From NCBI GenBank assembly GCA_002170165.1, contig NHFY01000062.1, positions 1-64,000 on the forward strand: DNA of 64,000 nt. The letters are read 5' to 3'. The position numbers and the translations under genes were made by a program. Of the stretch, positions 41,404-47,558 are shown in pieces. A model generated the notes under the pieces. That model did not search any database. It saw only the letters and a list, made by a program, of their open reading frames with translations, and was not told the DNA's origin. Each line of letters begins with the position of its first letter. The stretch's first letter is position 1. Source of the stretch: Flavobacteriales bacterium TMED123. GTDB lineage: Bacteria > Bacteroidota > Bacteroidia > Flavobacteriales > BACL11.

Positions 41404-41433
41404 AATTTTATTTATTGTGATTATTAATGACCT

Positions 41434-41441
41434 CAAAAATA
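41434..41441 (-). promoter_or_regulatory. -7 box of the porin gene
   Basis: The minus strand reads TATTTTTG, matching TAnnTTTG, 30 bases before the ATG. The GTTAA repeats start 20 bases upstream in place of a -33 element. Confidence 0.6.
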
Positions 41442-41460
41442 CAAACCATTTAACCCTGAG

Positions 41461-41500
41461 TGTTAACTAAATGTTAATTTAATATTAATTGTTAAGTTAA
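41461..41500 (-). promoter_or_regulatory. Candidate Pho box of the porin gene
   Basis: On the plus strand GTTAA occurs at 41462 and 41473, ATTAA at 41484 and GTTAA again at 41496: an 11-base period, one helical turn, as in PhoB/PhoP boxes of other bacteria. The nearest unit is 20-21 bases upstream of the -7 box, the same as at pstS. Sites of this kind are bound by a tandem OmpR-type dimer such as PhoB. Confidence 0.6.
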
Positions 41501-41532: not shown

Positions 41533-42186
41533 TTATTTTTTACTGTGCTTAATAACTTTTGCTTCTAGATGGTATATTATTTCTTCACCTATTTTTTTCA
41601 AACTATCACCAGCCCTTTCTATTTTTCTTATGCTTGATAATAGATAAAGTAACATATTTTTGTCATATTTATCAATATTATTAATAATGATTTGGTGTGC
41701 ATCAGTATTAATCTTGTTTATTAGTTTATCTTTTTTGAATACTCTCCTAGCAATACTCGGGTCTTCATTTTCAAATGCTTCAATAAGGCAGTCCATCATG
41801 GTATTAAATACATCTAACATTTCTGTTAAACGTATTTCATCTACAATTTTTTTATCGTAAGCTATATTATAATCCGATACGTATTTTGCTATGCTCTCTG
41901 CAATATCTGCAATATGTTCAAGAGCGTGATTAATTTTATATGTTGATAATATAAATCTTAAATCTACTGCTACTGGAGCATGAAGTGCTATTATATTTTC
42001 ACAATCATTATCAATTTTAAGTTCTTGAGCATTAATTCTATTTTCACTAGATGAAATTTCTTCCGCAATATCCTGATCATAATTTATTATTGCATTAGCC
42101 CCTTTCTCCCATTGTCCTTCAACTAAAAAAAACATTTTCAGTAGAGATGATTTTAAATTCGATATTTCTTTTTCTATAGTATTCAT
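41533..42186 (-). CDS. phoU: Phosphate transport/signalling regulator PhoU
   Basis: 217 residues, all helical, with two repeats of the three-helix PhoU fold; the metal-binding patterns E/D-x-x-x-D occur around INHALEHIADIAESIAKYV and SIRKIERAGDSLKKIGEEI. It links PstSCAB to PhoR and restrains the regulon under phosphate surplus. It lies 11 bases after pstB, the last gene of the pst unit. Confidence 0.95.
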   Translation of the reverse strand: MNTIEKEISNLKSSLLKMFFLVEGQWEKGANAIINYDQDIAEEISSSENRINAQELKIDNDCENIIALHAPVAVDLRFILSTYKINHALEHIADIAESIAKYVSDYNIAYDKKIVDEIRLTEMLDVFNTMMDCLIEAFENEDPSIARRVFKKDKLINKINTDAHQIIINNIDKYDKNMLLYLLSSIRKIERAGDSLKKIGEEIIYHLEAKVIKHSKK

Positions 42187-42197
42187 AATTATATATT

Positions 42198-42953
42198 TTA
42201 ACCGAAACGACCTGTGATATAATTTTCAGTTCGTTCCATTTTAGGATTTGTAAAAATAGTATCAGTTTTGTCAAATTCAATTAGATCGCCCATGTAAAAA
42301 AATGCAGTGTAATCACTAATTCTTCCTGCTTGTTGCATATTATGTGTTACAATTATTATAGTATATTTTTCTTTTAAAGTAAGTATTAGTTTTTCAACTT
42401 TAGCTGTCGCAATTGGATCTAACGCTGATGTTGGTTCATCCATTAATATAATTGAAGGTTCTACAGCTAATGCTCTTGCTATACATACTCTTTGTTGTTG
42501 ACCTCCTGAAAGAGCTAATGCAGATTTACCAAGATCATCCTTTACTTCCTCCCATAAAGCTGCTTGCTTTAAGGCGTCTTTGACTCTTGTTTTAATAAAT
42601 GCTTTATCATTTATACCTTGAATTTTTAATCCGTAAGCAACATTATCAAAAATTGATTTTGGAAAAGGATTTGGTTTTTGAAATACCATTCCAACATTTT
42701 TTCTAAGCTCATCTACAAGAACACTTTTATCATAAATATTTGTGTTATCAATATATATATCACCATTCAATTTAAAAGAATCAATGTAATCATTCATTCT
42801 GTTAAATAATCGTAAAAATGTTGACTTACCACATCCAGACGGTCCAATTAATCCAGTAACAGCATTTTCAGTTATCCCAATGTTTATATTGTTGAGTGCT
42901 TTCAATTTTCCATAAAAGACATCAATATTTTTTGCTTCTAATTTATATTTCAT
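42198..42953 (-). CDS. pstB: Phosphate ABC transporter, ATP-binding protein
   Basis: 251 residues. Walker [10 protein letters not shown], signature LSGGQQQR, Walker [12 protein letters not shown] and the H-loop TH are intact. [14 protein letters not shown] is the PstB-specific stretch. It drives phosphate uptake through PstA/PstC. Gap of one base to pstA. Confidence 0.97.
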
Positions 42954-42954
42954 T

Positions 42955-43812
42955 TTACCAATTTATTTTTTTCTGCCATTTGTTTCTAAAATATACTGCT
43001 ATACCATTCATAGTGAAAGTAATTGCTAACAATATAATAATTGCAGCCGCAGCATTTATTGCAAATTCATGTTGTGGACGAGAAACCCAGTTAAAAATTT
43101 GAATTGGCAGCACAGTAAATTCATCCATTGGACCTTTAGGAGTGAATGGAACATATGCTAATGCGCCAACTACAATTAACGGTGCTGTTTCACCTACAGC
43201 TCTTGAAATAGCCAATATAACGCCAGTTAAAATTCCTCCTGATGCAGCGGGTAATACTTGATACCATGTTGTTTGCCATTTAGTAGCACCAAGACCGAAT
43301 GATGCAGCACGAATTGAAGATGGTACAGCCTTTAATGCTTCTCTTGTTGCTACAATAATTATAGGAAGAATTAATAAAGCTAAGGTAAAGCTTCCAGCTA
43401 GAACACTACTACCTAAATTACTAAGTCTAACAAATATTTCAAGGCCTAATAGACCATATATAATTGATGGTACTCCTGCTAAATTTGAAATATTGATCTC
43501 TAATAATCTAGTTAGTTTATTCTTTCTATTGTATTCCTCAAGATAAACACCAGCGCTTATTCCTATGGGTACTGCAATAATAAATGTAAAGATTACTATC
43601 CATAATGAACCTGACCAGGCAGTTAAAATTCCTGCTTTTTCAGCTTTTCTTGAAGGTAAAGATGTTAAAAAGCTCCAATCAATTCTATTAAATCCATCAT
43701 AAATTATATTACCAATGAAAATTGCTAGCAGAATTAATCCGATAGAGCAAGCAAATACACCAATATACTTAAATATTGAGTCTTTTAATCTATTTTTCTC
43801 ACCATTAGTCAT
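42955..43812 (-). CDS. pstA: Phosphate ABC transporter, permease PstA
   Basis: 285 residues with six membrane segments. The EAA-loop region [25 protein letters not shown] and [14 protein letters not shown] are PstA landmarks. It pairs with PstC in the inner membrane. It overlaps pstC by eight bases. Confidence 0.95.
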
Positions 43813-44683
43813 ATTCTTCTCTGAATTTTTTTCTTATCCAAAAGCTAATATTATTTAGAATAAAAGTAAAAACAAATAAAGTTATTCCAGCTGCAAAAAT
43901 TGTTCGATATTCTAATGAATCATGTTGCACATCCCCCAAACTTACTTGAACAATATATGCGGTAATAGTTTCAACTGGTACCAGCGGGTTTAATGTTAAT
44001 CTAGGTTGTTGTCCTGCTGCTATTGCTACAATCATTGTTTCTCCAATTGCTCTAGAAAATGCGAGTATTACAGATACTATTATACCTGAGGATGCAGCAG
44101 GAATCATAACCTTAAAAGAAGTTTGTAGCTTTGTTGCTCCCATCCCATAGGATGCCTCTCGTAGAGATTTTGGTACTGCGCTAAGAGCATCTTCACTTAA
44201 AGAACTTATGAATGGGATAATCATAATTCCCATTACAATTCCAGCTGATAATGAATTAAATCCAGCCATTTCAGGTATTAATTTTTGTAAAAAAGGTGTA
44301 ACTACCATAAGTGCGAAAAAACCATATACAACTGTAGGTACCGCAGCTAATATTTCTAACAAAGGTTTGATAAATTTTTTTAATTTTTTTGGAGCATATT
44401 CGCTTAAGTAAATTGCAATTGTTAATCCAATAGGTAGTGAAACACTAATTGCTATTATTGTAGTTAAAATTGTACCTGAAATTAAAGGTAAAATTCCAAA
44501 ATGCTTATTTGCAAATAAAGGAGTCCATTGGGTGTCGGTTAAAAAATCAATAATAGAAACTTCTTTGAAGAATACTAGGCTTTCACTTAGTAAAACCCAT
44601 ATAATTCCAATAGTTGTTAAAATTGTAATAAGAGCAGTTGCTCTTAATATAAATTCAATTATTTTTTCTTTAATTTTTTGCAT
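43805..44683 (-). CDS. pstC: Phosphate ABC transporter, permease PstC
   Basis: 292 residues from ATG at 44683 (MQKIKEKIIEF). Six membrane segments; the EAA loop (ASYGMGATKLQTSFKVMIPAASSGI) and SRAIGETMIVAIAAGQQP are diagnostic. A longer frame to 44746 has a hydrophilic lead without support. The 99 bases to pstS show no -7 box or terminator, so the genes are probably one unit. Confidence 0.95.
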   Translation of the reverse strand: MQKIKEKIIEFILRATALITILTTIGIIWVLLSESLVFFKEVSIIDFLTDTQWTPLFANKHFGILPLISGTILTTIIAISVSLPIGLTIAIYLSEYAPKKLKKFIKPLLEILAAVPTVVYGFFALMVVTPFLQKLIPEMAGFNSLSAGIVMGIMIIPFISSLSEDALSAVPKSLREASYGMGATKLQTSFKVMIPAASSGIIVSVILAFSRAIGETMIVAIAAGQQPRLTLNPLVPVETITAYIVQVSLGDVQHDSLEYRTIFAAGITLFVFTFILNNISFWIRKKFREEYD

Positions 44684-44782
44684 TCTACTAAAAAAACAAA
44701 ACTCGTATTTTTTTTTAATAAAATGCGAATTTTGAAAACCAAACAAACAGATATTATGAAAATATCTAATTTATAAAGGAAT

Positions 44783-45730
44783 CTATTTAATAAATTCGTT
44801 AAATTTCTCTATTTCAAAACCATATTCTTCATCAGTTAATGGAATGTATCCTACATCAGCAACTAAATTTTTAGCATTTTTTAGATAAAAAGAAATAAAC
44901 TCTTTTACTTCTTCTCTCTCTTTAGCACTGTTATTAGCATAAATAAATATTGGCCTTGATAATGGTGCGTATGTTCTACTTGAGACAGTTTGCATGCTTG
45001 GTAAAACTGAACCACTTCCATTGTCAACTCCAACTAATTTTAATTTCTCTTTATTTTCTTCATAATAAGCTAATCCAAAAAAACCAAGCCCATATTTATC
45101 AGTAGCTACACCTTGTACCAAAACATGATCGTCTTCTGATGCAGTATAATCTCCTCTTGTTCCAACTTTCTTACCGCATATTACTTCTGCAAAGTAATCA
45201 TATGTACCTGAAGCTGTTCCAGGTCCAAAAAGATGAATTTCTTCGTTTGGCCACCCTTCTCTAATCTGACTCCAGTACTTTATATTATTTTGGGCATCTG
45301 GATGCCAAATTTTACTAAGTTCATCTACTGTAAGATAGTCTACCCAATCATTTTCTGGATTAATAATAACTGCAAGACCATCATATGCAACACTTAATTC
45401 CAAGTATGAAATGTTATTTTCATCACAAACTTTAGCTTCTTTATCTTTAATTGGTCTAGATGCATTACTAATATTAGTTTCACCTCTAGAGAACTTTTGA
45501 AACCCTCCTCCAGTTCCAGAAACACCTACTGTAACTCGAACATTAGGTGCAACAACTCTAAACTCTTCTGCTACTGCTTCAGTAACTGGATATACAGTAC
45601 TAGAACCATCAATTTTAATATCACCAGATAAGGCGCTAGAATTATTTGTATTGTTTGAATTTGAAGAGCAACCTATTAATATTAGTGATAATATCACAAT
45701 CTTAAAGTTTAAAATTTTTTGTTTAATCAT
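44783..45730 (-). CDS. pstS: Phosphate-binding lipoprotein PstS
   Basis: 315 residues from ATG at 45730. The lipobox LIGC (Cys about residue 20) gives a lipoprotein; [22 protein letters not shown] and [16 protein letters not shown] are the phosphate-binding loops, and SGTYDYF carries the second contact. It delivers phosphate to PstCA. A candidate Pho box and a -7 box lie upstream. Expected to be induced in low phosphate. Confidence 0.96.
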
Positions 45731-45760
45731 AATTTTTATTTTTTTAGTTAATAAACATTG

Positions 45761-45768
45761 CAAACTTA
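45761..45768 (-). promoter_or_regulatory. -7 box of pstS
   Basis: The minus strand reads TAAGTTTG, matching TAnnTTTG, 30 bases before the ATG, the same distance as in the porin promoter. Confidence 0.6.
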
Positions 45769-45787: not shown

Positions 45788-45827
45788 CTGTATCCTAACA
45801 GTTAACTATATGTAAAAAAATTGTTAA
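45788..45827 (-). promoter_or_regulatory. Candidate Pho box between pstS and phoB
   Basis: On the plus strand GTATC at 45790, GTTAA at 45801, GTAAA at 45812 and GTTAA at 45823 follow an exact 11-base period. The first unit is 22 bases upstream of the pstS -7 box, matching the porin layout and orientation. It points at pstS; phoB, on the other side, could also be controlled. Confidence 0.6.
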
Positions 45828-45864
45828 TTTTTAATGTATTTAAATTTTGATTTATTCTTTTATT

Positions 45865-45872
45865 TAGTTTTG
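45865..45872 (+). promoter_or_regulatory. -7 box of phoB-phoR
   Basis: TAGTTTTG matches TAnnTTTG, 16 bases before the ATG. A TTTG at 45846-45849 gives a 15-base spacer, shorter than usual. Confidence 0.5.
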
Positions 45873-45888
45873 TCAAAAAAATTTTTAT

Positions 45889-46548
45889 ATGAAAATATTA
45901 ATTGTTGATGATGAGGAAGATATTTTAGAATTCCTTTCTTATAATTTAAAAAAGCAAGAGTATAAAATATTTACAGCAAACGATGGTAATAAAGGTTTGA
46001 TGTTAGCTCAAAAACATAATCCAGACTTAATAATACTCGATGTTATGATGCCTGGTATGGACGGTATAGAATTATGTGATAGGATTAGACAAGTACCAGC
46101 TTTAAATGACGTGCTTATAATTTTTCTTACTGCAAGAGCAGAAGATTATTCCGAATTAGCTGGTTTTGATGCAGGAGCAGATGATTATATTACGAAGCCT
46201 ATAAAGCCTAAATTACTAATCAGTAGAATCAAGGCGATTTTAAGGCGAAAAACTGAAAAACTTGCTAAAAACATAAAGTTAGCTAATTTTGAGATAGATA
46301 AAGATAAATACACTCTTTTTTATTCTGGTAAGGAGATTTTTCTTGCAAAAAAAGAGTTTAATCTACTTTTTTATTTAATGACTCTGCCTGGAAAAGTTTT
46401 TAAAAGAAAAGAAATTATTGAAGAAGTATGGAATGATGCAATTGTTGGAGATAGAACTATAGATGTGCATATAAGAAAAATTAGAGAAAAAATAGGTGAT
46501 CATCATATCAAGACTGTAAAAGGTGTGGGATATAAATTTGATGTTTAA
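45889..46548 (+). CDS. phoB: Phosphate response regulator PhoB (OmpR family)
   Basis: 219 residues. Receiver domain about 1-120 with acidic pocket DD at 7-8, phospho-acceptor Asp51 in LDVMMPG, T in TARAE and K in TKPIKP; C-terminal winged helix (about 130-219, DRTIDVHIRKIREKIG). Phosphorylated by PhoR it should bind the GTTAA repeats upstream of pstS and the porin. Its stop overlaps the phoR ATG. Confidence 0.93.
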   Translation: MKILIVDDEEDILEFLSYNLKKQEYKIFTANDGNKGLMLAQKHNPDLIILDVMMPGMDGIELCDRIRQVPALNDVLIIFLTARAEDYSELAGFDAGADDYITKPIKPKLLISRIKAILRRKTEKLAKNIKLANFEIDKDKYTLFYSGKEIFLAKKEFNLLFYLMTLPGKVFKRKEIIEEVWNDAIVGDRTIDVHIRKIREKIGDHHIKTVKGVGYKFDV

Positions 46549-47558
46549 TGCGTTTTAATACACCCATACAAATTGCTTTGTTTTTAAGCTCATTACTTTT
46601 TTTAATTGCTGGTGTTTTGTTTTATCTTACGGCTGCAACTTCACACTTCTTCTTAAGTTTGATTTTATTCTTCTTTTTTTCTGTAATAGTTATTTACAAT
46701 ATAGTAAAGCGAATGCTTCATGAGAAGATCAAAGTAATCTATAAAAATATTTATAAAGTTAAAGGGACACCAAAAGTTACAGAATTGGATATTGAAAATG
46801 CCGCCAAAAAAGTTGAGGATTGGGCAGAAGAAAAAGAGAATGAAATCTTAGCAATGAAAGAAAGCGAGAATTATAGAAGAGAGTTTATTGGAAACGTTTC
46901 TCATGAATTAAAAACCCCAATATTTAATATTCAAGGCTATGTTCAGACATTATTAGATGGTGGCTTGAATGATAATGAAGTTAATGAAAAATATCTGATT
47001 AGAACTAATAAAAGCGTAGACAGAATGATAAATATAGTTGAAGATTTAGAAACTATTACGCGTTTAGAAACAGAAAAAAGTGAGCTAGATATAAGAAAAG
47101 TTAATATTAAAAGCTTAGTGAATGATGTATTTGAACTATTAGAAATGAAAGCAGGATCTTTGGACGTCAAGCTCTCAATAAAAAATGAAAGTAATTCAGA
47201 ATTTGTTTTGTGTGACCAAGACAAAATACAGCAAGTATTTGTAAACTTAATTAGTAATTCTATAAAGTATGGCAAGAAAGGTGGGTATACAGAAGTGCGT
47301 TTTTATGATATGAATGATAAGCTGCTTATTGAAATTGCTGATAATGGTATTGGAATAAATCAAGAGCATTTACCTAGACTATTTGAAAGATTCTATAGGG
47401 TAGATAAAAACAGATCAAGAAAAATTGGAGGAACAGGTTTAGGTTTAGCAATTGTAAAACATATAATTGAAGCGCATAATCAAACTATTAATGTGAGAAG
47501 TACTACTAATAAAGGCTCCACCTTTTCTTTTATTTTAGAAAAAGCAAAACCTAACTAA
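46548..47558 (+). CDS. phoR: Phosphate sensor histidine kinase PhoR
   Basis: 336 residues. Two membrane helices lie within about residues 8-55 with a very short periplasmic loop, so there is no external sensor domain. The H-box GNVSHELKTP carries His119; the ATP domain has N, G1 (ADNGIG), F (FERFYRV) and G2 (GGTGLGLAI) boxes. As in E. coli, signal probably comes through PstSCAB-PhoU rather than from outside. PAS-type sensing is absent or not recognised. Confidence 0.92.
   Translation: MRFNTPIQIALFLSSLLFLIAGVLFYLTAATSHFFLSLILFFFFSVIVIYNIVKRMLHEKIKVIYKNIYKVKGTPKVTELDIENAAKKVEDWAEEKENEILAMKESENYRREFIGNVSHELKTPIFNIQGYVQTLLDGGLNDNEVNEKYLIRTNKSVDRMINIVEDLETITRLETEKSELDIRKVNIKSLVNDVFELLEMKAGSLDVKLSIKNESNSEFVLCDQDKIQQVFVNLISNSIKYGKKGGYTEVRFYDMNDKLLIEIADNGIGINQEHLPRLFERFYRVDKNRSRKIGGTGLGLAIVKHIIEAHNQTINVRSTTNKGSTFSFILEKAKPN

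Follow-up and report, generated by a model that had tools for sequence, protein, structure and literature searches.

Riemerella anatipestifer belongs to the Flavobacteriales, the order that also includes the organism analyzed here. In other phyla, the Escherichia coli Pho box controls the outer-membrane porin gene phoE, and the Bacillus subtilis PhoP box consists of several TTAACA-like direct repeats with a period of about 11 bp upstream of pst. In many phyla, Pho boxes consist of direct repeats of 11 nt (PMC4415409). The box of E. coli PhoB is built on CTGTCAT, in units of 7 + 4 bp, and lies 10 bp upstream of the -10 element (PMC4415409, PMC1906773), and the cyanobacterial SphR box comprises three or more repeats of CTTAACCT in units of 8 + 3 bp (PMC1906773). 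In R. anatipestifer, PhoP is up-regulated in phosphate starvation; its DAP-seq motif, TTTAACA, was likened to that of E. coli ArcA, and binding was supported by EMSA with a 35-nt stretch upstream of phoPR (PMC9603813). EMSA showed direct binding of PhoB to a fragment of the pst promoter in Bacteroides fragilis, where pst is expressed in a phoB-dependent manner (PMC3547664). Flavobacterium johnsoniae mounts a large low-phosphate response in which phoX is strongly induced; no induction was seen for OprP, whose gene belongs to the phoBR operon (PMC8115612). A search of the open-licence literature found no description of a box for F. johnsoniae.

Here, we analyzed a 64-kb stretch of flavobacterial DNA (the window) in which a repeat array precedes a porin gene next to pst and phoBR-like genes. 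Judging from sequence comparison, this array is very probably a Pho box, composed of TTWAYA half-sites arranged head to tail at an 11-bp period, for the PhoB-like regulator encoded at 45889-46548. It resembles the E. coli box in its 11-bp direct repeats, its position in place of the -35 element and its association with pst, but differs in half-site sequence and in lying 10, 20-22 or 31-32 bp from the -7 box according to unit number. The B. subtilis box likewise has 11-nt units (PMC4415409) and a very similar half-site, but belongs to another phylum and another type of promoter, the one here being TAnnTTTG. The SphR box shares the TTAAC core, the 11-bp period and the presence of at least three units, and differs in its extended core and promoter type. 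The Riemerella site is similar in its Pho-type response regulator and TTAACA core, but the targets listed in the accessible part of that report are mostly unrelated to phosphate, in contrast to the phosphate transport genes found here, and an 11-bp register to the -7 box, as seen here, is not given there (PMC9603813). The B. fragilis pst operon shares the phylum, PhoB dependence and, in that organism, direct binding by EMSA, but its binding site was left undefined (PMC3547664). A Bacteroides-like genus (see below) carries repeats of the (A/G)TTTCA/GTTACA type with the same 11-bp period.

The phosphate gene cluster

The minus strand of the window encodes pstS, pstC, pstA, pstB, phoU and the porin in this order, with the porin last, and the plus strand carries the genes for a PhoB-like regulator and a PhoR-like kinase, oriented divergently from pstS (Table 1). 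All pst genes and phoU score above the NCBI curated cut-offs. The regulator matches Response_reg and Trans_reg_C, both above cut-off, which places it in the OmpR/PhoB family. Its best model is PhoB TIGR02154 at 219.5 bits (cut-off 296.2), and the other PhoB model, NF053854, gives 207.6 bits (cut-off 270). Because both PhoB models score below cut-off, we call it PhoB-like on the strength of its domain architecture and neighborhood. Elsewhere in the assembly of the window's genome (G000), contigs C39 (10460-11374) and C93 (50459-51373) yield identical PstS-like matches with equal E-value and length, which suggests a duplication or redundant contigs.

Table 1. Features of the window discussed in the text
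Feature	Coordinates	Strand	Details
Outer-membrane porin, 328 aa	40417..41403	-	Modelled porin-like beta barrel, about 16 strands
Porin -7 box	41434..41441	-	TATTTTTG; TAnnTTTG columns invariant in the alignment of 13 promoters
Porin Pho box (candidate)	41461..41488	-	TTAATA 41488-41483, TTAACA 41477-41472, TTAACA 41466-41461
Extra TTAAC units off the 11-bp register	41490..41500	-	TTAACT 41500-41495, TTAACA 41495-41490
phoU	41533..42186	-	TIGR02135, 141.7 bits (cut-off 130)
pstB, phosphate ABC ATPase	42198..42953	-	TIGR00972, 398 bits (cut-off 343)
pstA, phosphate ABC permease	42955..43812	-	TIGR00974, 283 bits (cut-off 193)
pstC, phosphate ABC permease	43805..44746	-	TIGR02138, 287 bits (cut-off 196)
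pstS, phosphate-binding protein	44783..45730	-	TIGR02136, 300.9 bits (cut-off 206.6)
pstS -7 box	45761..45768	-	TAAGTTTG
Second Pho box (candidate), before pstS	45800..45827	-	TTAACA-N5-TTTACA-N5-TTAACT
PhoB-like response regulator	45889..46548	+	Receiver and winged helix; divergent from pstS
PhoR-like histidine kinase	46548..47558	+	PnpS/PhoR models best or near-best, below cut-offs

Pfam hardly recognizes the porin at all, and in particular gives no match to PF07396 (Phosphate-selective porin O/P), which matches weakly in 4 of 18 relatives. Membership in this OprP/OprO family was dropped for want of sequence support. The AlphaFold2 model (pLDDT 75) has the general porin fold, and Foldseek relates it to OmpT (E = 5e-14) and OprP (6e-13), the best folds being OmpT/OmpU, VhChiP (chitoporin), OprP, OprO and OmpF. 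On this predicted structure, the product is a porin by fold, and the fold gives no substrate.

Repeat arrays at the porin and pstS promoters

On the coding strand, the porin promoter reads TTAATA-N5-TTAACA-N5-TTAACA, with units spaced exactly 11 bp apart. The sequence-only reading had listed GTTAA at 41462, 41473 and 41496 and ATTAA at 41484, all of which are present, and had assigned them a common 11-base period. This period holds for the first three units but not for the fourth (41496), which follows 12 bp on and is thus one base out; the two extra TTAAC units are off register by 1 and 4 bases. The -7 box was also correctly placed on the minus strand, reading from 41441 to 41434: 19 bases separate it from the proximal TTAACA (41461), or 20 when counted from the nearest GTTAA core (41462). 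Since TAnnTTTG is taken to occupy -12 to -5 (PMC9723704), transcription of the porin would start near 41429 with a 5' leader of about 26 nt, and that of pstS near 45756 with a leader of similar length (about 26 nt). The proximal unit of the porin promoter then falls at about -37 to -32, the expected site of a -33 element.

We scored the 129-bp porin intergenic region for a triplet of TTAACA units with a period of 11 and obtained 17 of 18, a score reached by none of 2000 dinucleotide shuffles (shuffle mean, 11.7). Among the other periods from 6 to 17, none gives more than 14 in this region. The same site has the top score on both strands of the whole window, with the pstS promoter as runner-up (16 of 18). 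Two-unit TTAACA matches at low stringency number 22 in the window against 24.2 expected from shuffles; because this frequency is no better than chance, two loose units count as no evidence. A sigma-70 promoter scan returned fewer matches than in shuffles.

The box before pstS, absent from the earlier reading, is a better copy than the porin box. In this promoter, GATACA at 45794-45789 forms a fourth, degenerate unit that would lie at -38 to -33, again where a -33 element is expected; activator sites that substitute for the -35 element are arranged in this way. In the window's own genome (2.1 Mb, 74% complete), a three-unit pattern derived from both sites is matched exactly at those two sites only, and the remaining near matches are mostly intragenic or lack a -7 box. 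Because the pattern was drawn from the sites themselves, this comparison is partly circular, and independent tests were therefore made (see below). The phoB-like gene has a good -7 box of its own, TAGTTTTG at 45866-45873 on the plus strand (region 45839-45873), and the box at 45800-45827 could therefore act at the two divergent promoters, allowing autoregulation.

Conservation in related Flavobacteriales

We assembled 17 Flavobacteriales loci encoding a porin at about 50-59% identity, nearly all of which adjoin phoBR or pst, and scored all upstream regions of these loci and the window with TTWACA-N5-TTWACA-N5-TTWAY at a threshold of 16 out of 17 positions. A box scoring at least 16 occurs in 21 of the 32 regions upstream of pstS, porin, PiT-like and NptA-like (Na/Pi symporter) genes and in none of the 100 regions upstream of other genes (Fisher p = 1e-16, optimistic because related sequences are not independent). 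As expected of a Pho box, the element thus combines direct repeats at an 11-bp period with a position upstream of phosphate genes and rarity elsewhere, and the reading first proposed for the porin promoter is supported. That reading had been staked on conservation in close relatives, and sequence, strand, 11-bp period and -7 register are all kept there.

With a matrix built from the relatives only, the pstS site ranks first (23.1 bits) and the porin site second (18.8 bits) of the 127,948 positions in the window, compared with a best score of 16.45 over 20 shuffled windows. When 13 promoters are aligned, the columns that never vary are those of the TAnnTTTG box and of three TTnA cores spaced at 11 bp. 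The box was matched 0-3 times per genome in scans covering the window's genome and the 17 relatives, and over these 18 genomes the matches mainly precede pstS, the porin, the PiT-like family and the Na/Pi symporter. The porin box of the window is weaker than its pstS box, with a -7 distance of 20 rather than 21 bp. Porin boxes are poor (12-14 of 17) in three relatives (L032, L034 and L041), each behind a PiT-like gene with its own box.

The PiT-like gene encodes a conserved membrane protein of 380-437 aa beside phoBR (L084, L093, L082, L083, L086, L100, L101, L105 and L106), often shares an operon with the porin and bears the same box. It matches PHO4 (PiT) only at E = 0.013 and probably represents a family of divergent phosphate transporters that all but escapes Pfam.

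Register between the box and the -7 box

TAnnTTTG follows the last unit after 10 bp at NptA, 20-22 bp at the porin and 31-32 bp at pstS and some PiT-like genes, corresponding to 10 + 11n. Over 21 promoters, this register gives a Rayleigh R of 0.94 on a period of 11, and the values -1, 10, 21 and 32 recur in an order-wide sample of pstS promoters. By its position, then, the box would replace the -35/-33 element at a fixed distance from the -10/-7 element.

Alternative explanations and the identity of the regulator

The porin might be transcribed only by read-through from the pst operon, its own box being a relic. The gene is collinear with pstSCAB-phoU, begins 129 bp past phoU, and nothing resembling a terminator was detected in the gap. 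In three relatives (L038, L040 and L043), however, the porin adjoins phoBR away from pst and still keeps the box and a good -7 box in register, so we consider read-through improbable, though the best placed of the alternatives.

A second alternative accepts the site but assigns it to another winged-helix regulator, ArcA- or WalR-like, rather than to the neighboring PhoB. Direct repeats of TTAAC at 11 bp are common to several OmpR-family proteins, the authors of the Riemerella study likened their motif to that of E. coli ArcA (PMC9603813), and the window's genome encodes three Trans_reg_C proteins. Against this, searches of six related genomes yielded, in four (G398, G399, G408 and G410), one Trans_reg_C protein each, the PhoB beside the box. 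This sole OmpR/PhoB-type DNA-binding domain shares a contig with the box, at a distance of no more than about 1 kb, an argument that is strong but not absolute because the related genomes are incomplete. The targets are also nearly all phosphate genes, and a different regulator therefore seems quite unlikely. The PhoB-like protein of the window is presumed to bind both the porin and the pstS box; its binding and its response to phosphate would follow from gene context and from analogy with published work in relatives (PMC9603813, PMC3547664).

Less probable still is that the repeats are phased AT tracts or a UP-like element, which would bend DNA or contact the alpha subunit and confer constitutive strength without phosphate control. 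AT-rich units do lie at helical period upstream of -33, but the conserved C of TTWACA (2.0-2.8 bits in the relatives' matrix) would be unexpected, as would the restriction to phosphate genes, since other strong promoters should carry such elements too. That the AT-rich spacer (78% A+T) has merely produced functionless GTTAA repeats by chance is the least credible explanation, for although two-unit matches are no commoner than in shuffles, the three-unit form is unmatched in them, and a chance origin is refuted by the conservation of the box and its confinement to phosphate genes in relatives.

Proposed mechanism and significance

Under the Pho-box reading, scarcity of phosphate would lead the PhoR-like kinase to phosphorylate PhoB, whose dimers would occupy one half-site after the next along the same face of the helix. 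PhoB at the promoter-proximal half-site of the porin promoter would supply the missing -33 contact and recruit sigma-A polymerase to the TAnnTTTG -7 box. A box of this type would also activate the pst operon, and the porin would pass phosphate or other anions across the outer membrane to periplasmic PstS. We infer activation rather than repression at both boxes, as well as the substrate of the porin.

Activator sites in Bacteroidota are poorly mapped, and promoters there differ from the textbook type. Pho boxes elsewhere, the Riemerella TTTAACA motif (PMC9603813) and binding of B. fragilis PhoB to pst (PMC3547664) were already known from the literature; what is added here is the half-site, the fixed TAnnTTTG register and the set of phosphate-transport targets in marine Flavobacteriales. 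A defined half-site and a fixed -7 register allow the phosphate regulon to be predicted in uncultured marine flavobacteria, which is relevant to the phosphorus cycle of the ocean. The box also offers a promoter model for an activator acting at TAnnTTTG promoters and assigns porins, together with a divergent family of PiT-like transporters, to the phosphate regulon. The phase-locked Pho box is a useful refinement of a known control element, of which this locus is an ordinary but clear example.

Distribution in the wider Bacteroidota

The sequence-only reading had proposed the box as the Bacteroidota form of the Pho box. This description fits the related Flavobacteriales but is too wide for the phylum: a Bacteroides-like genus uses GTWACA, only some of the loci sampled across the phylum score, and the box is indistinct before Flavobacterium phoX, where the three-unit form is not significant in most genomes. 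Among 395 Bacteroidota genomes, exact TTWACA-N5-TTAACA-N5-TTAAY has 59 matches, compared with 13 for the reversed control. Genes downstream of these matches include phoB, PstS-type and PhnD-type binding proteins, Porin_O_P porins and many TonB-dependent receptors. In distant lineages (L061, L065, L066, L068, L072, L074, L076 and L077), the triple repeat precedes a related set of TonB-dependent receptors with a CarboxypepD_reg domain, as seen in L076, the one scanned. The presence of the repeat suggests that such receptors may be phosphate controlled.

The genus that we take to be Bacteroides-like from a 16S primer site (L180-L200) carries GTWACA/GTTTCA repeats before pstS, such as GTTTCA-N5-GTTACA-N5-GTTACA, and this variant is present on both strands of the divergent region upstream of pstS. 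Pairs of TWACA at 11 bp number 17 in this genus against 0.12 expected, and the exact GTWACA triple shows no enrichment across the class (3 matches, 6 in the reversed control). We tentatively propose a rule for the sigma-A phosphate promoters of Bacteroidota, which we give slightly less than an even chance of holding: any number of PhoB half-sites may occur, provided that they lie 10 + 11n bp from TAnnTTTG, with PhoB replacing the -33 contact, and the half-site may drift (TTWACA in Flavobacteriales, GTWACA in Bacteroides) without loss of the register. Across the phylum, only 5 of 26 pstS loci reach p < 0.01, the sample being mostly GC-rich lineages or loci in which pstS is not first in its operon. 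In one GC-rich genus (f15; L117 and L126), a conserved TTTACC-N5-TTGACA repeat lies upstream of pstS, with p < 0.01 in each case.
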